DNA of 64,000 nucleotides from Phytoseiulus persimilis (lineage: Eukaryota > Arthropoda > Arachnida > Mesostigmata > Phytoseiidae): assembly GCA_037576195.1 (NCBI GenBank), contig CM075101.1, positions 11,222,001 to 11,286,000 on the forward strand. The letters are read 5' to 3'. Within the stretch, counting starts at the first letter, position 1, and every line of letters starts with the position of its first letter. The notes under the pieces were generated by a model. It worked only from the letters and a program-made list of their open reading frames with translations. It was not told the origin of the DNA and did not search any database. Both the position numbers and the translations under genes were made by a program. Shown in pieces: positions 54,454-64,000 of the stretch.

Positions 54454-55518
54454 TCAGAGTTCGACTCTCAGGGATTTCTTGTTTGTTCGTACGCGCTTCG
54501 ATTTTGTCGTCGACAATAACTCATAGGCGGCACCAATGTCCATAAATCTTCGTTCGGCTGAAAGCCTTTCCCCGAGATCCCTAACTCTGTCTGGATGGTA
54601 CTGACGAGCCAATCTCCTGAACGCGGCTTTGATGTCATCTTCCGGGGCATTCTGTGATACGCCGAGGATTTGAGCAGCGTTCTCCTCAGGGGTAGAACTG
54701 ACGAGAACTTCCCATACAGAGCCGAAGCCATGATAGCGGACGTGATTGTATACCACCGGTATCGAGTCCCTTATCTGATGCATAACATCCTCCGCGTGCA
54801 AGTAAATATGGCGCAGCGCGTCAACGCATCGCACTTCTGCTTCATCTTCTTGAAGTGTTATTGTACAGTTATGAACGAGAGAACTTGCTGCGAGAGACAC
54901 TATGATTCCCACCAAAAGCGCGTTGGAACCCAACCTTTGCAGCTTGGAGCCGTAGTTATTCGGCTTCGAGCGAAACCTCTTCGATGCTCCGAACGTATGG
55001 TCTGACACCATCAGACACCAAATGCGGGTGGCCTCAGGGAAGTACATGTAATATGGGGTGGTGAGAAGGGCTCCTTGCGCAGCGCTCCAGAAAGATCCTT
55101 CGGTTTCTCCGATGTTCCCGAAGAAGTAAACTCCGTACGCAACGACAAGACTCATCAGGAGAGGTATAACGAAGGCTTCAATGCTCTTCGGAAAGAAACC
55201 CTCCGGTATCGAGCTTTCGGTCAAGCCGCAGAATGAGCAAATGAGCCATGAGCCTGCCACATCGACATGAAATGGTCGGGATGGCTTCTTCCGGGTCTTT
55301 GTTCTCTCCAGGAATTTTCCGTTGTAGACACCGACGGAGTTGGCCCACGCAACGTAGTGCCGCATTCGGAACGCGTCGTGAATCCAGCCCACCACAAAGC
55401 CGCCCAAAGTCACTAACTGCACGATGCCATGCCGGTCTCTCCCCAGATAGAAGTGGTGGGCACCGAGAAGCCCTAGTGTTCCCCACAAGAAGAATGCCAC
55501 GGCTAGCGACTTCGCCAT
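54454..55518 (-). CDS. DNAJC22: DnaJ homolog subfamily C member 22 (wurst), intronless
   Basis: This is a multi-pass membrane J-domain co-chaperone. In flies wurst recruits Hsc70 and clathrin and is needed for endocytosis in airway development. The product is 354 residues. It starts [20 protein letters not shown], then [11 protein letters not shown], the TM2-type hallmark, followed by several hydrophobic segments such as [19 protein letters not shown] and [16 protein letters not shown]. The J domain is C-terminal, from about residue 279 ([20 protein letters not shown]), with HPD at 308-310, as in this family and unlike most DnaJ proteins. The frame is open 30 codons further upstream to 55608, but MAKS matches the family start and I chose it. 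A basic tail ends the protein. The coding region is intact with no introns, so retrocopy origin is possible though nothing else suggests it. Confidence 0.93.
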
Positions 55519-55909
55519 CGCGTCAACGATCACACGTAGACCGGGAACTGGGACTGGTGAGATTAGGAGTCTAGCATGCCAGAGCAATTCCAGTATTGCG
55601 CTAGCCACCTAACACAGTTGCTTATACACGGCAAAACCGACGCACTTGAGATAAAACTTCAACTTTCACAGCCGAACGAATACAACTCTTCTTCGACAAA
55701 TAACCCCTGTCTTCAGTCTTCCGTGGGAGGGCTCGTCGATCTGAGAACGGATTTGAGAACGGATCTGAGAGATCACCCGAAGATCTCGGAATAACCGACA
55801 CCTCTCTCCAATTCAGAGGGTATGACCGAGGCTCTCGCCGACTGTTCACGATACCACCCGACCGAAACACCATTGGAACGTAGCGGTTTTCTGATTACTG
55901 CAGCCTAGG

Positions 55910-55964: not shown

Positions 55965-57910
55965 AAAATCGGATACGATTTTCAACAAGAAAAGTTTCGC
56001 TCCAGAAAACGCATAATTAGGACATCGGCGGCATCGAACGACCGGTAGGTTTCCCTATTGGCCGCCGCGAATAGCAAACCATCCTTACTGATTCGGGTTC
56101 AGCTGAAAACCGTGGCAACCGAGAGAGACTTCACTGCTATCTCGTAATTCACAATCGCTTCCTCCTTTCGATAATGAGTCATCTGTAAGTGTTGATGAAA
56201 CCACAGACTTTGTTTGCATACAGCTGCGGGGTCCCTCCGATTTCCCGCGAGCTTCTGGGACATTCGGTAGACCCAACCTCGCTGAACTCTGTTGCACAAT
56301 GAGGGCCTCAGGCTCAGGCGTCTACCTCAGGAAGTCTTAGCATCAGTCAGGTAGGTACCAATAGACGCCCCCGGAGTTCTCACCCCGGAAACATAACTAG
56401 TGCCGCCCGCCTCACACTCACTCATCTTCGGGCTGTCCCCATTGCAAACTCCCGCGTTCATGGGGCAGACACTCGAAGATTGATGTTTGTATCAGCGTTC
56501 CGCGCGATACTTTTTAAAACGTTAAAGAACTACCCTCCTTGTTGAGCTCTCGGAACGAGTATTATCAATGAGATCCAACGACGAGTTTCAGGCACACCTG
56601 TTCAGCTGTTGAAGCCTGTTAGGGAGCTCGCGGATCTTCTGATCTCTCAACTCCTCATGGCGCTCTTGACATAAATTGTAGATCTTCTCTTTTTGGTGAG
56701 ATTCTGGCTCGCCTTGGTACCTTGCAGCGACGCTCACTGAATTCATCGATTCCGACTGCCCGTCCGTAGCTTACGGAATTCGCACGATTCCGATAACATG
56801 AGAAAGAAAAACACTCTATCGGGATCGAAAGCACTCTGGATCAGTTCCGTTGCGGCTAGCTCCCGGTACAACAAACGAATCCTCGCCGGTAGAATGTAAG
56901 CCTACATTGAAAGATCAGGTTGCGCCCGTGATTCACGTTCCTCGAGTCATCTATGATCCCGGCCACGATCTCCGAAGAGTAAGTTCGAGCTGCTGCCGAC
57001 CTGCTTTTGCTACCAGAGTCGTTGCAAGCCGCCACTTCGGTAGCCTCTATGTTGATACGCAATAGAGTGCGGGCCAATTTCCTCGCGGGGCCAACTTCCG
57101 CGCAGAGGCTGTGATTTCTCATCGAGTTCCCATTCTCATCATTTTCATGACAGCCGACCCTGTCTTCATCCATTGAGTCAGCGATAGAGGACCTAGCGCA
57201 AAGACCATATCGGACTAAGCATGGGGTTCTGGCCCTGGGGCGTCTTTTCAAAGTGCTGTGCTGCGAGGTACGCCACTCCTTCCCCGGGGCCCCACCTGCC
57301 ATCATGTGTTGATTGATGTGTGAGCCGTGGCCGCTGAAATTCGCCGAAAGTCTCAAAAGACAAAAAAAAAAAGGGTTTTCCTTCAAAGGAATAAGCCTGG
57401 AAGAGCGACGAGACTCAGAAATCCGCTGTGCATTACATTGGACAGATGGTAAGTCTTGCCACAACTCATGATATCCATAAGTCATGGAACCGTTGACGTC
57501 TCCAGTAGAGGAATAGGGTATCATCATCTCTTTCGCTAGAGATGGGTGAACTTGATTTGATCGAGCCGATGAGTGGCCCACAACGTATGCATCATCCTGA
57601 TGATCCAACAAGAAAACCTCACAAATTCTCCATGGGGTTAACAACATTGTAACAAGCTGGCCACTCGAAGTCATCCGGATCATTGGAATGAAGCATTCTT
57701 GCTCCGCCGACGATCACCTCGGAAGAAAACTCGAGGTTTGAGCCTCCGCGAGTAGGCATGTATTTTTGCGACTCGTATCTCGGTGTACGAAATGGAGCTC
57801 CACCATCAACAGACGATTTCAACCCACCGAAATCATCCAATTAATGGTGGATCCCTGTTCTCGGACTCGAATATTAATTTCCGAGTCCCGGGGATGCATG
57901 CCATACCGAT
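55965..57910. other. Spacer before the Helitron-like array; no gene recognised
   Basis: The - strand holds a 275-codon frame (56856-57683) with no recognisable domain and patchy low-complexity composition. I do not call it. An A-run of about 12 lies at 57361-57372. Confidence 0.4.
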
Positions 57911-58080
57911 CCCCCCCTCACCATTTACCCCGACGGTGACCCCCTCAATACCATCACATGTATGTAAATTCTGACGATAAGATGCAACGCCCCAATTTGA
58001 CGCCAGCTAGACTCCGAGGACACATCGCATCGTCATCGTATACCCTCCCCACCCCTCCTCACTCTCTCCTTACCCCCTCT
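57911..58080 (+). mobile_element. Truncated copy of the Helitron-like internal region
   Basis: This stretch parallels 58275-58420. Both share a 'gaccccctc..ata' block, 'aattctgacgataag.tgca', 'cgcccc', 'tgacgccag', and 'tcgtcatcg.ata' followed by C-rich sequence. It is a partial copy lying directly upstream of the next unit's 5' end, which extends the tandem arrangement. Confidence 0.65.
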
Positions 58081-58452
58081 TCTATATATATCTATACTTC
58101 TATATCTATCTATATATATAAAAATCCAGGGTCTGTTTGTTTGTTTGTTTGTTTGTATGTCCTCAATAGGCTCCTCTGGTATTGATCGGATCGACTTGGA
58201 ACAAACTGCATAATGTAGGGCGGCTCTCCGGGACGGACATAGGCCACCCACCCCTCCCCCCTCCTCCTCCCCTCCTCCCCCCCTCGCGATCTACCCCAAC
58301 TTTGACCCCCTCCATACTGTCATCCGCATCCAAATTCTGACGATAAGGTGCACCGCCCCGTTATGACGCCAGCCAGACTCATCCCATCGTCATCGGATAT
58401 CCTTCCCCACCTCCTCTCCTGTACATCTATCATGAAAATCTATCATAAAAAT

Positions 58453-61250
58453 TCCTGGAGGGGTGATTTCGAGACCAATAAGGCCATTACTTCCCAACTC
58501 TTGAGGGGTGATTCCGAGACCAATCTGGCCATTACTTTACAACTCTGGAGGGTTGATTCCGAGACCAATCTGACTATCACTTTCCAAGTCTGGAGGGGTG
58601 ATTCCGAGACCAATCTGGCCATTACTTTCCAACTCTGGAGGGGTGATTCCGAGACCAATCTGGCCATTACTTCCCAATTCTGGAGGGGTGATTCCGAGAC
58701 CAATCTTGCCATTAGTTTTCAACTCTGGAGGGGTGATTCCGGTGCCAATCTGGCCATTAGTTTCCAACTCTGGAAGGGTGATTCCGGTATCAATCTCGCC
58801 ATTAGTTTCCAACTCTGGAGGGGTGATTCCGGTACCAATCTGGCCATTACTTTCCAACTCTGGAGGGTTGATTCCGAGACCAATCTGACTATCACTTTCC
58901 AAGTCTGGAGGGGTGATTCCGAGACCAATTTGGCCATTACTTCCCAACTCTAGAGGGGTGATTCCGAGACCAATCTGGCCATTACTTTCCAACTCTGGAG
59001 GGGTGATTCCGAGACCAATCTGGCCATTACTTTCCAACTCTGGAGGGGTGATTCCGAGACCAATCTTGCCATTAGTTTTCAACTCTGGAGGGGTGATTCC
59101 GGTGCCAATCTGGCCATTAGTTTCCAACTCTGGAAGGGTGATTCCGGTATCAATCTCGCCATTAATTTCCAACTCTGGAGGGGTGATTCCGGTACCAATC
59201 TGACTATCACTTTCCAAGTCTGGAGGGTTGATTCCGAGACCAATCTGACTATCACTTTCCAAGTCTGGAGGGGTGATTCCGAGACCAATTTGGCCATTAC
59301 TTTCCAACTCTGGAGGGGTGATTCCGAGACCAATCTGGCCATTACTTTCCAACTCTGGAGGGGTGATTCCGAGACCAATCTGGCCATTACTTTCCAACTC
59401 TGGAGGGGTGATTCTGAGACCAATCTGGCCATCACTTTCCAACTCTGGAGGGGTGATTCCGAGACCAATCTGGCCATTAGTTTCCAACTCTGGAGGGGTG
59501 ATTCCGGTGCCAATCTGGCCATTAGTTTCCAACTCTGGAGGGGTGATTCCGGTACCTATCTGGCCATTACTTTCCAACTCTGGAGGGGGGATTCTGAGAC
59601 CAATCTGGCCATTACTTTCCAACTCTGGAGGGGGGATTCTGAGACCAATCTGGCCATTACTTTCGAACTCTGGAGGGGTTATTCCGAGACCAATCTGGCC
59701 ATTACTTTCCAACTCTGGAGGGGTGATTCCGAGACCAATCTGGCCATTAGTTTCCAACTCTGGAGGGGTGATTCCGGTATCAATCTGGCCATTACTTTCC
59801 AACTCTGGAGGGGTGATTCCGGGAGCAATCTGAGCATTACTTTCCAACTCTGGGGGGGGGATCGCGAGACCAATCTGGCCATTACTTTCCAACTCTGGAG
59901 GGGTGATTCTGAGACCAATCTGGCCATTACTTTCCAACTGTGGAGGGGTGATTCTGAGACCAATTCGGCCATTACTTTCCAACTTTGGAGGGGTGATTCC
60001 GAGACCAATCTGGCCATTACTTTCCAACTCTGGAGGGGTTATTCCGAGACCAATCTGGCCATTACTTTCCAACTCTGGAGGGGTGATTCCGAGACCAATC
60101 TGGCCATTAGTTTTCAACTCTGGAGGGGTGATTCCGAGACCAATCTGGCCATTACTTTCCAACTCTGGAGGGGTGATTCCGGAACCTATCTGGCAATTAC
60201 TTTCCAACTCTGGAGGGGTGATTCCGGTATCAATCTGGCCATTACTTTCCAACTCTGGAGGGGTGATTCCGAGACCAATCTGGCCATCACTTCCCAACTC
60301 TGGAGGGGTGATTCCAAGACCAATCCGGCCATTACTTTCCAACTCTGGAGGGGTGATTCCGAGACCAATCCGGCTATTACTTTCCAACTCTGGAGGGGTG
60401 ATTCCGGGACCAATCTGGCCATAACATTCCAACTCTGGAGGGGTGATTCCGGGACCGATCTGACCATCACTTCCCAACTCTGGAGGGGTGATTCCGAGAC
60501 CAATCCGGCCATTACTTTCCAACTCTGGAGGGGTGATTCCGAGACCAATCCGGCTATTACTTTCCAACTCTGGAGGGGTGATTCCGGGACCAATCTGGCC
60601 ATTACTTTCCAACTCTGGAGGGGTGATTCTGAGACCAATCTGGCCATCACTTTCCAACTCTGGAGGGGTGATTCCGAGACTAATCTGGCCATTAGTTTCC
60701 AACTCTGGAGGGGTGATTCCGGTGCCAATCTGGCCATTAGTTTCCAACTCTGGAGGGGTGATTCCGGTACCAATCTGGCCATTACTTTCCAACTCTGGAG
60801 GGGGGATTCTGAGACCAATCTGGCCATTACTTTCCAACTCTGGAGGGGTGATTCCGAGACCAATCTTGCCATTAGTTTTCAACTCTGGAGGGGTGATTCC
60901 GGTACCAATCTGGCCATTACTTTCCAACTCTGGAGGGGGGATTCTGAGACCAATCTGGCCATTACTTTCCAACTCTGGAGGGGTGATTCCGAGACCAATC
61001 TGGCCGTTAGTTTTCAACTCTGGAGGGGTGATTCCGGTGCCAATCTGGCCATTAGTTTCCAACTCTGGAGGGGTGATTCCGAGACCAATCTGGCCATTAG
61101 TTTCCAGCTCTGGAGGGGTGATTCCGAGACAAATCTAAGCATACTTTTCAAAACCTGGAGGGGTGATTCCGGGACCAATCTGACCATGCTTCTCCGAATC
61201 TGGAGGGGTGATTACGACACCAATCTGACCATACTTCTCGAGACCATGAT
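58453..61250. repeat. 45-bp minisatellite, about 62 tandem copies
   Basis: The unit is 45 bp and includes ggaggggtgattccgagacc followed by aatctggccattactttcca. Copies differ by a few recurrent substitutions, such as gagacc/ggtgcc/ggtatc and ctggcc/cttgcc. The variants recur as higher-order repeats. The marker 'gggttgattcc' recurs at 58551, 58866 and 59226, spaced 315 and 360 bp (7 and 8 units). 'ccaatccggcc' blocks recur 180 bp apart near 60320 and 60500. Edge units (61140-61250) are the most decayed. Since 45 is a multiple of 3, several frames stay open: 841 codons on - (58537-61062) and 657 on + (59290-61263). I read this as noncoding satellite. Confidence 0.95.
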
Positions 61251-61405
61251 GCTGACCAAGTGAAGAGAGGGGAAAGTGCCTCGATTCCAGGTCAGAACCC
61301 TTTCGAGAATCGGTGGCCACTCCCGAAGGTCTCATGACACTACATTTAAGGCGATGTGTGTCTGTCAGCAGTAGACTCCCGAAGCAAGGGACGGGTCGGC
61401 CAGCG

Positions 61406-61427
61406 TAGTCGGCCGAAGGCCGGCTAG
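61406..61427 (+). other. Helitron-like 3' terminus: hairpin plus CTAG (unit A)
   Basis: TAGTCGGCC pairs with GGCCGGCTA around GAA, nine pairs with one T-G wobble, and the unit ends CTAG at 61424-61427. The next base begins the AT-rich 5' end of unit B with no spacer. Confidence 0.75.
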
Positions 61428-61570
61428 TATATATATAAAAATCCAGGGTCTGTTCGTTTGTCCTCAATAGACTCCTCCGGTATTGATCGGATCGACGTGG
61501 AACAAACTGCGTAATGTGGGGCGGCTCACCGGGAAGGACATAGGCCACCCACCCCTTCCTCCTCAGCCTG

Positions 61571-62394
61571 CCGCCCTCCCTCTTTCGATCTTGGGCCCGA
61601 TACCGTGGAACATAGCGTACGACGGCGTTCTCAGAATTCGGCTCCCTCCAAACTCCGCCACCTTGGCCTGCGCCGACGATCTGGCCCTGCTGACCACCGT
61701 GCTGGATACCAAGCTCTTGCAGATGTATGCGAATGAGAGTCTCGCTTCCATCTCATCTTGGATGTCGGACGAGGGCCTGCGCATGGCGCCACACAAATCG
61801 TTGGCCATCTTTCTGAACGGCCGAAAGCCCCCGCCTTCCTCAATCGATATCCGATCCGACGGAGAACAAATTGTGGTGACCAGCACTGCCAAGTACCTGG
61901 GCGTCTTACTAGACACCGGGCTGACAGGGAAGGCCCACTATGATATACGCGATGGCGAAGACGACCGAGGCAACCCAGGCACTCTCAAGACTCTTCCCCC
62001 GAGGTTTGGTTCTCGGCCGGTGGACGGGCCCACGCTGGTGAGCCTAATGCTCAAGGGAAGCAAAGAGTGTCGAGCCGTCGCAGCGCTCGCTGCCGGTTTG
62101 ATTTCGTACGAGAATCGAACCCTCAAGGCTCATATTGACCGCTACCTAGCGGCTCGACAGCATGCGCCAGCCCAGCCCACGGGCTCCGCGGTCCGGTAGA
62201 TCGGAAGGATAAGAAGGGGACCCGTAGTTATTCCCACTGAGGGACGTGCCGGGTTCCCTCCCCTGTTCGCAGGGCCAATAGAGGATAAAGGTTTTAAAAG
62301 GTATTGGCTCCTGCACTTTCACGGGTCGAGCTTGGATCAACAATTCCGTTGATTCCGATAAACGCATTTCGCGTGAAAAAAGAAGAAAAAAAAA
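61571..62394 (+). pseudogene. 5'-truncated R1-like non-LTR retroelement (reverse transcriptase fragment)
   Basis: The + frame contains LGPIPWNIAYDG, then LPPNSATLACADDLALL, in which CADD stands where the catalytic YADD box of reverse transcriptase would be. SSWMSDEGLRMAPHKS and AKYLGVLLDTGLTGKAHYDI follow. This order is typical of the R1/jockey-type fingers-palm region. A frameshift follows, since another frame reads MAKTTEATQALSRLFP as in R1 relatives, and a stop at 62197-62199 ends the frame. The fragment ends in an A-rich tail (62376-62394), which fits a retroposed 3' end. The N-terminal RT, endonuclease and gag parts are absent. It is inactive. Confidence 0.8.
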
Positions 62395-62419
62395 CATGTG
62401 GTACCGGGATCTATCTCAG

Positions 62420-62470
62420 CACGCTTCTCGGAGTCTGGGAAGGTGATTCCGCGGTCGCTCTGACCCATTC
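62420..62470 (+). repeat. Single decayed minisatellite unit in unit B
   Basis: 'gtctgggaaggtgattccgc' followed by 'ggtcgctctgaccca' aligns with one 45-bp unit of the unit A minisatellite. Unit B therefore descends from a repeat-bearing ancestor or kept one copy. Confidence 0.6.
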
Positions 62471-62683
62471 GAGAGGTAGAAATGTACCCCCTTGCCGGAA
62501 CTTGCCAGATTGTGTTTGTTCCCATGTATGAACGGGATACTAATCTCAACCATGAGGCGCACTGCCCCGATACTATGCTGGCGAGAATCGGTGGCCACTC
62601 CCGAAGGTCTCATGACACTACATGTAAGGCAACGTGTGTCTGTCAGCAGTAGACTCCCGAAGCGAGGGACGGGCCAGCTAGCG

Positions 62684-62705
62684 TAGTCGGCCGAAGGCCG
62701 GCTAG
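62684..62705 (+). other. Helitron-like 3' terminus: hairpin plus CTAG (unit B)
   Basis: It has the same hairpin and CTAG end as at 61406-61427. TC at 62706-62707 begins the next unit (tctatcataaaaatcc), giving an exact CTAG|TC junction. Confidence 0.78.
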
Positions 62706-64000
62706 TCTATCATAAAAATCCACTTCTTCGAATGTCCTGGATGGACTTCCACGCGACTGATCGAATCGACATGGAACTGGCGGCATGTTGTGGAGTGGTT
62801 CACTAGGATGGACGAAGACTTTCCGGGCACAATGAAGGTGCTTCCGGGAGCAATCCGACCGTACTCTCGGAAACCTAGGAGGGGTAGGGGATCCCGAGGT
62901 CGATCTGACCATACTCTGCGGACCCTAAGGAGGTGCTTCCGGGATCGATCTTTTCATATTCTCGGGAGTTCTGGGAGGTGGCTCCGGTCGGGTACCAGTT
63001 ACCCGAATCCCAGTTAATCGTATTTCACTTCCCCGGATCCCAGTAACCCGAATCCAAATCACCCTCTCTCACCGCTAAATCCTCATGCGTTGAAGCTCCT
63101 TGTGCTTAGCGATTCGGGCGCCGATAGAACTTCGGAAGTTCGACCCAACCGGTTCTACCTTTCCCTCGAGAATGACGTTACCCGAGAGTTCCAGTCTCCT
63201 ATCTCGCTTGAAGTTTCCAATGTTCCTACTGGGACTCCAAAAGTCATCCTCCACAGTGAAGTATGGTTCTCAATATTCTTATCTTGATGCTCTCTTGTTG
63301 ATTTATCGGTCGAAAATAAACCCTGTCATCGCCTGCTCTGCCGCGCGCTTTTTGGGAAATCCGGCTCTATGCCGGAGGACCTTCTTTGTTTTCCGGCTGA
63401 ACCTCTCAGCCAGCCCTCAGAAGTGTCCCGGAATCACCTTTCGGTATTGCTTCAGTAACACTCCCTATCGCCTCGCAAATCCCATTGCGGGCGGTGGGCT
63501 TGGGTCTTAAGATGGTTCAGATATAATTCTGATATAAATTGAATCCTCTTTTTACCACTAAAGAAATTTGTCGGAGGACCTGGCTGATCCCCGTGAGTTT
63601 TTGCTCGTGGGTTTCCATGATTCTCAAGCGATATTTGTATTCCGCACGATTTGTGGAAATACATTGTACACTGCGCTATACTCCACTGCACGAAAACTTC
63701 GTCGTATATTCCAATGGGTTCCACCCTTGTTGCGTCAGTGGAGTGAATATCTCTTTCAGTCAGGGCTCAAGAGCGTAAGGATTCGGCAGTGAGAGAGAGT
63801 AATCTGGATTCGGGTAAGTGGGATTCGGGTAACTGGCGTAGGACGGTGGCTCCGGGGTCGTTCTCACCACACTCCTCGCAGTCTAGGTAGGTGAATCCAG
63901 GATGGGTCTGAGCATACTTTAGACAGACAACACGCACAGACTAGCCGAATGAGGAGATAGTTCACCAATGCTGCTGACCCATCCGAGAGGCAGAAAACCT
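62706..64000 (+). mobile_element. Helitron-like unit C, incomplete at the window end
   Basis: It starts tctatcataaaaatcc directly after the CTAG of unit B. A diverged 5' block (gatcgaatcgacatggaact) parallels that of units A and B. The interior holds decayed 45-bp units at about 62830-62990 and again at 63840-63920. They are interrupted by a separate element with terminal inverted repeats. 'gacccatccgagaggcagaaa' near the window end matches 'gacccattcgagaggtagaaa' in unit B (about 62461). The 3' terminus lies outside the window. Confidence 0.62.
62996..63835. mobile_element. 840-bp element with 21-bp terminal inverted repeats
   Basis: The left end (62996-63016) and the reverse complement of the right end (63815-63835) share CAGTTACCCGAATCCCA and differ at one of 21 positions. 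A second inverted pair lies just inside: AACCCGAATCC near 63045 and GGATTCGGGTAA near 63806. TA dinucleotides lie at 62993-62994 and 63839-63840, one and three bases outside the ends. CAG-beginning ends and TA targets suit pogo/Tc1-mariner type MITEs. No transposase is recognisable inside (63090-63790). It interrupts decayed minisatellite of unit C. Confidence 0.7.

Follow-up and report, generated by a model that had tools for sequence, protein, structure and literature searches.

The window analysed here, 64,000 nucleotides of the genome of the predatory mite Phytoseiulus persimilis (G000:C1:11222001-11286000), carries three Helitron units joined end to start near its right edge. Units 1 and 2 close with the same 123-base-pair (bp) terminus (t1 and t2), a hairpin followed by CTAG; the two copies are 94.3% identical over 123 bp, both end GGCCGAAGGCCGGCTAG, and no further match to the terminus was found within the window at an expect value (E) ≤1. 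Adjoining each terminus without a spacer is the AT-rich 5′ end of the next unit. A first-pass annotation of the sequence had described this arrangement correctly. It had also read both junctions as exact CTAG|TC, which is right for 62705|62706, where the next unit starts TCTATCATAAAAATCC, but not for 61427|61428, which lacks TC and reads CTAG|TATATATATAAAAATCC (CTAG|TATATA); and it had let the array start at 57911, where only a truncated relic lies.

57910..58060, + strand: truncated and diverged remnant of the later half of a 5′ block from another copy; it shares 76% identity with the unit 1 5′ block over 151 bp
58085..58108, + strand: AT-rich stubs of the form TCTA(TA), abutting unit 1, seen in the sequence
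58109..58425, + strand: start of unit 1, 5′ block ‘a’, starting TCTATATATATAAAAATCCAGGG; 48 BLAST matches in retrieved loci
58426..58452, + strand: internal left-end-like site ‘b’, TCTATCATGAAAATCTATCATAAAAAT, with A before it; the a|b joint pattern recurs in the genome
58453..61240, + strand: minisatellite of period 45 bp, the element body
61305..61427, + strand: 3′ terminus of unit 1 (t1), hairpin and CTAG; shares 94.3% identity with 62583-62705 and 99.2% with copies elsewhere
61428..62705, + strand: unit 2, with a 5′ block lacking TC (82% identical to unit 1), a reverse transcriptase (RT)-like insert, a short minisatellite remnant and a 3′ terminus
61595..62199, + strand: open frame within unit 2 resembling the end of an RT (RVT_1 positions 127-203)
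62583..62705, + strand: 3′ terminus of unit 2 (t2), hairpin and CTAG; 96.7% identical to copies elsewhere
62685..62703, + strand: terminal hairpin AGTCGGCC-GAA-GGCCGGCT, present in minimum-free-energy and centroid DNA folds
62706..64000, + strand: start of unit 3, TCTATCATAAAAATCC, at the exact CTAG|TC joint, then diverged sequence; its 3′ end lies beyond the window

Relationships of the three units

Neighbouring units are less alike than copies found far apart. Both termini match copies elsewhere (99.2% for t1, 96.7% for t2) better than each other, and the 5′ block of unit 2 is 94% identical over 137 bp to locus L062 as against 82% to unit 1 (C1–C4 denote genome contigs, and L001 and so on denote retrieved genome loci). 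The ‘a’ block of unit 1 has its best match in L062, the seven best listed BLAST matches being 88–98.7% identical. Since the units have closer relatives elsewhere than in their neighbours, they look like separate insertions and not like products of read-through. On these comparisons, the units of the window would quite probably have arisen as separate copies inserted one after another, at or near resident left ends. The first-pass annotation had offered both origins: repeated insertion fits the window, and a concatemer is rejected for these units, as they are not each other's closest relatives. Unit 3 is more remote, with 66% identity to L087 over 257 bp, and its start has no match to the 5′ block of unit 1 at E≤1e-3.

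Different cargo had also been assigned to the units, which is partly right. An RT-like stretch does lie in unit 2, but its similarity to RVT_1 is weak (E=0.0045, 17.1 bits, under the Pfam cut-off of 29.6). The minisatellite is rejected as captured cargo, being the element body, present in variable copy number in 17/17 annotated loci. It is open on both strands (58537-61134, − strand, 865 amino acids; 58954-61263, + strand, 769 amino acids) since its period of 45 is divisible by 3, which can mislead gene callers.

Ends and anatomy of the family

Throughout the 181 Mb genome searched (127 contigs), the family is present in hundreds of copies with TC and AT-rich sequence at the left end, a hairpin and CTAG at the right end, and insertion between A and T. 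Searching with the terminus, as the first-pass annotation had proposed, yielded 720 occurrences of a 20-bp terminal core at ≤2 mismatches, versus 5 for a reversed control; the 30 loci L001–L030 are the best matches to t2 among 40 scored of 530 candidates and thus form a non-random sample. Single insertions between A and T, which it had suggested looking for, are the usual case: of 334 exact GAAGGCCGGCTAG ends, 330 have T as the next base (control 2) and 4 some other base (control 13), and the base preceding TC at 24 non-array left ends is A in 19, T in 3 and C in 2, one of the 24 (L067) having a flank that resembles the end of an ‘a’ block. The flanking target-site duplications that the annotation had named as a counter-indication are rejected, none recurring consistently among six complete non-array copies. 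In four of these the two ends have no base in common; in L013 the shared bases are TA and in L085 TTTT.

The hairpin AGTCGGCC-GAA-GGCCGGCT stops 2 nucleotides short of the terminus. The fold of the 73-nucleotide terminal region is no more stable than that of shuffled sequences (z −0.56; 58/200 shuffles fold as well). A search of a phage collection gave no match.

In the 17 annotated loci the usual order begins with an ‘a’ block of ~300–350 bp that opens with TCTATATATATAAAAATCCAGGG and as a rule closes with CTCCTATACA; next come ‘b’ (TCTATCATAAAAAT), the 45-bp repeats and the 3′ end. The copy in L075 measures 261 bp, too short to contain much minisatellite. Genome-wide, 188 places carry the a|b joint pattern at ≤2 mismatches (control 0). 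Among 22 distinct b sites in the retrieved loci, identical ones counted once, 17 follow an ‘a’ block, 3 follow CTAG and 2 are degenerate sites of another kind (L005, L065). Two or three consecutive ‘a’ blocks stand in L062, L070, L071 and L074; those of L062 and L071 are separated by a TCTA stub, as if an insertion had struck the second A|T of ‘b’.

RepHel-coding copies

Copies coding for a Rep/helicase protein (RepHel), the kind of autonomous relative that the first-pass annotation had suggested looking for, are bounded by the same ends on C3 and C4. PF14214 has 101 genome matches, some of them from other families. The frame in L034 matches Helitron_like_N (E 7e-61) and the start of PIF1 (E 2.7e-4, 21.0 bits, under the Pfam cut-off of 25.9); among the best 120 of 3197 matches, its closest named relatives are proteins of the scorpion Centruroides (75% identical), the frog Eleutherodactylus (74% over 88%) and the pseudoscorpion Cordylochernes (71–72%), the comparison being made between proteins. 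Its N-terminal part contains about eight repeats of ~23 amino acids (for example, RASRLGTQRERTTQARALEDTQQ), which resemble the STPR family PF21107 at 23.4 bits, below the cut-off of 27; PF21107 is also annotated on several relatives.

On the minus strand of C3, a CTAG|b joint (252801-252825) and a CTAG|a joint (245340-245372) flank ~7.45 kb holding the L034 RepHel frame. At the right end of this stretch the helicase C-terminus (36/52 amino acids identical to a Centruroides RepHel) comes ~240 bp before CTAG, and the last 22 bp equal the non-autonomous end with 1 mismatch, the preceding bases not matching. As far as its sequence goes, the ~7.45-kb stretch presents itself as a RepHel copy with family ends, though ~3.4 kb of it outside the part read may hold a further end. 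A 9.4-kb stretch of C3 was tried as one autonomous unit and reduced to ~7.45 kb, a further CTAG|b joint lying inside it. On C4, ~6.7 kb between joints 1889561-1889585 and 1882820-1882857 contains a RepHel match, by positions only.

Taken with the ends, these copies support assignment of the family to the canonical Helitrons of RepHel type, in line with the earlier designation as Helitron-like. The ends are TC and CTAG and the target is A|T, unlike Helentron/Helitron2 elements, whose ends are not of the TC/CTRR type and which insert at TT or TTTT|T (PMC5148889; this and the other papers cited are represented by the available parts of their text).

Target motif

Downstream of the insertion point the targets share the motif T-N5-ATA, seen in 18/27 distinct non-array 3′ flanks; with positions 2–16 shuffled, the mean is 1.4 and the maximum 8 in 20,000 trials. 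This set comprises CTAG ends only, the second end in L090 also being dropped. The motif stands at 0.7% of the A|T sites in the window. Genome-wide it follows 182/330 ends, versus 31/330 for the shifted decoy T-N7-ATA. Of the 182 rows 100 were listed, including 18 b-type joints (see below) and 14 from one cluster with a shared flank; for the decoy, letters were shown for 20/31 rows, 13 of which recur among the places listed for T-N5-ATA.

The element's own left ends differ in their fit. On a matrix built from the 27 flanks, left end b (TCTATCATAAAAA) scores 8.99, like a true target, the in-sample median of the flanks themselves being 8.46. As a target motif T-N5-ATA is specific enough to be tested, and it partly coincides with one of the left ends of the element.

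Head-to-tail joints across the genome

Tandem junctions beyond those of the window, a further suggestion of the first-pass annotation, are numerous. The a-type pattern (CTAG, 0–30 bases, then AAAATCCAGGGTC) occurs 46 times and the b-type pattern (CTAG|TCTATCATAAAAATC at ≤2 mismatches) 45 times, with controls of 0 for both; the counts take in segmental duplicates. They occupy 35 (a-type) and 33 (b-type) places more than 50 kb apart, many common to both sets. Among the a-type joints, 37 are exact CTAG|TC at normal spacing, 3 lack TC and begin TATATATA (one of them in the window), 4 sit 3 bp upstream of the left end and 2 have 6 extra bases; at the 3-bp offset of these 4/9 non-exact joints, T-N5-ATA is provided by the left end itself. 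Insertion inside a TATA tract was dropped as a general rule for array joints, as only 3/46 a-type joints begin TATA. The b-type joints are exact in 32 cases, with one mismatch in 9 and two in 4.

Within 0.4 Mb of C2 (G000:C2:6236740-6607268) lie 14 Helitron 3′ ends with the common flank TATCTCATA, a cluster that looks like the segmental amplification of one insertion.

Origin of the rows

Rows of end-to-start copies seemingly form as newcomers land on the left ends of older copies, which resemble preferred targets to varying degree. Insertion into the A|T just ahead of the TC of a resident copy would leave an exact CTAG|TC joint. Unit 1 would have entered a few bases inside the TATA tract of unit 2, leaving the TCTA stub upstream and CTAG|TATATA downstream; the last TCTA before unit 1 may be the left part of the 5′ end of unit 2, split in this way. 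Left ends may be favoured since target choice and recognition of the donor left end overlap (A|T-N5-ATA(A)), a pattern that TCTATCATAAAAA fits. That one recognition may serve both donor left end and target is the most uncertain step, TCTATATATATAAAA fitting the motif only loosely and not in exact register. A nested copy in L074, as its sequence reads, shows a clean case of such an event: the inner element lies between ...CTCCTATACA and TCTATCATAAAAATC (TCTATCATAAAAATCTATCATG...), and its flanks, when joined, give the a|b joint of other copies with no duplication.

Several observations weigh against origin by repeated insertion. Left end a (TCTATATATATAAAA), the commoner of the two, scores 2.46 on the 27-flank matrix, which puts it among the highest-scoring 4% of A|T sites of the window, and the motif therefore leaves the 37 exact joints before it unexplained. 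By our own arithmetic, motif frequency alone predicts ~0.2 insertions at b sites, versus 45 joints; the short motif is therefore not the full cause, and wider left-end recognition, or concatemers or unequal exchange, must add to it. Of the b-type joints, the 4/45 with two mismatches may be host targets rather than left ends, and no clear ‘b’ start at a host site was seen among the retrieved loci, so that the 22 distinct b sites do not bear out the idea of ‘b’ serving as a normal left end in host DNA. The TCTA stub could stem from microsatellite slippage instead. In 701 re-insertions of Helraiser there was no local hopping (PMC4778049). Moreover, arrays with 99.8–100% identical units exist, as concatemers or unequal exchange would give.

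The clearest such array (C2:20265990-20277486) starts with units of 2490 (339 + 2151), 2151 and 2151 bp. The identity among the 2151-bp parts is 100% and 99.8%, and their borders fall exactly at CTAG|TCTATCAT. The array has a single ‘a’ block ahead of three bodies that begin with ‘b’, a composition not expected from insertion of full copies alone and a further point on the same side. Such units fit read-through, in which a circular intermediate whose CTAG and TC ends are joined would be copied repeatedly and several units inserted together as a concatemer. Two adjacent 500-bp units on C1 that differ at 1 base (499/500) fit it too, as do the Helraiser circles with exactly joined ends (PMC4778049). 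We nevertheless consider read-through unlikely as the source of the rows: the neighbours in the window are less alike than copies elsewhere, the third 2151-bp unit of the C2 array directly adjoins an unlike unit of 923 bp (83–91% identical where aligned) before host DNA follows, and the units of the C3 array range by joint positions from ~2.0 to 7.45 kb. The constant periods of 2151 and 500 bp, together with a 2361-bp spacing of terminal cores seen twice on C2, are equally what would follow if a single insertion had created the first CTAG|TC joint and unequal crossing-over and segmental duplication had multiplied it, most joints being copies of few events. The duplication, further on in the C2 array, of a stretch with the 923-bp unit and its host flank (the second 923-bp unit being 99.9% identical to the first) and the 14 ends sharing the TATCTCATA flank (C2:6.24-6.61 Mb) argue for such multiplication, but it cannot make the first joint, it leaves the unlike units of the window unexplained, and the joints lie in the 33 and 35 widely spaced places given above; as the main source it seems improbable.

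That the hairpin-CTAG and TC ends are internal parts of a large composite repeat transposing as a block, the other counter-indication named by the first-pass annotation, we hold to be very improbable. Composite units do exist, as a|b joints and doubled ‘a’ blocks, and the a|b ones are copied, but for 28/40 distinct 3′ ends the adjoining DNA was not recognised as the start of an element and always opens with T, although one of these flanks (L090) may still be a related left end. The 40 ends come from the retrieved loci and the window, with repeats of an identical 30-base flank and flanks of <40 bases dropped and with ends other than CTAG, CCAG or CGAG (L010, L063, L068, L077, L089 and the first end in L090) left out. 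For the 3′ end, an internal position within a larger repeat is thereby largely refuted.

Insertion and read-through or unequal exchange probably both act in the family, the window being better fitted by repeated insertion. We put forward only tentatively, as a proposal that may well fail, the wider idea that the transposase recognises the donor left end and the target in one and the same way (A|T-N5-ATAAA), which would make resident left ends landing pads, head-to-tail arrays in general records of self-homing and not of read-through, and internal left ends such as ‘b’ by-products.

Relation to known Helitrons

The mite family resembles Helitron1 and the Helraiser/Helibat elements of Myotis in its TC...CTAG ends, 3′ hairpin, A|T insertion without target duplication, and RepHel. 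Helraiser targets are AT-rich, mostly on the 3′ side (PMC4778049); the mite family differs from Helraiser and Helitron1 in its fixed downstream T-N5-ATA and its 45-bp minisatellite body. No ATAA-type target motif is mentioned in the available text of PMC13286980, PMC4778049 or PMC2575219, in which the insertion logos are figures that may already show it. Tandem repeats in rolling-circle elements are shared with the satellite-carrying elements of oyster (PMC7492417), Helentrons by that paper's title.

Helitron target choice and head-to-tail rows have been debated since the maize and bat cases. In head-to-tail Helitrons of maize r1 and Myotis, CTAG|TC joints place the insertion at G|T instead of A|T, and the maize pair, of unlike contents, was interpreted as successive insertion (PMC2267711). 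These are one case in maize and several in bat, as against 91 joints from two patterns in the mite family, duplicates included. Elsewhere, head-to-tail Helitrons are cited in support of rolling-circle transposition (PMC5876387), and the multiple tandem insertions in plant centromeres, a feature shared with the mite family although the elements are truncated and centromeric, are explained by circular intermediates (as told in PMC5148889). For FoHeli of Fusarium, nested self-insertion at the 5′ end was proposed to give several 5′ termini (PMC5148889), which resemble the a|a and a|b composites described here; FoHeli is Helitron2-like, with other ends and targets.

The kind of arrangement is thus already known (PMC2267711, PMC5148889, PMC5876387), and the proposal of an undescribed family probably holds at the family level only. 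Among the open-access papers listed, none on Helitrons of predatory mites was found by title or abstract opening, nor were this family, its number of arrays or its T-N5-ATA preference found in the available text searched there. With ~90 detected joints and non-array, nested and RepHel copies side by side, the family allows insertion and read-through to be separated case by case.

Other features of the window

Within the unit 3 region lies an element of ~842 bp (62995-63836) with 29-bp inverted ends that are 86% complementary. No clear target duplication was seen around it by eye. A part of 187–188 bp from its middle recurs at 95–97% identity in L048, L053 and L059; in L078, 173 bp of this part recur. 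Upstream of the array, on the minus strand, is a DnaJC22-like frame (54454-55608), whose best named full-length match is from the mesostigmatan mite Tropilaelaps mercedesae (39%), with unnamed matches reaching 57%; this points to a mesostigmatan host.

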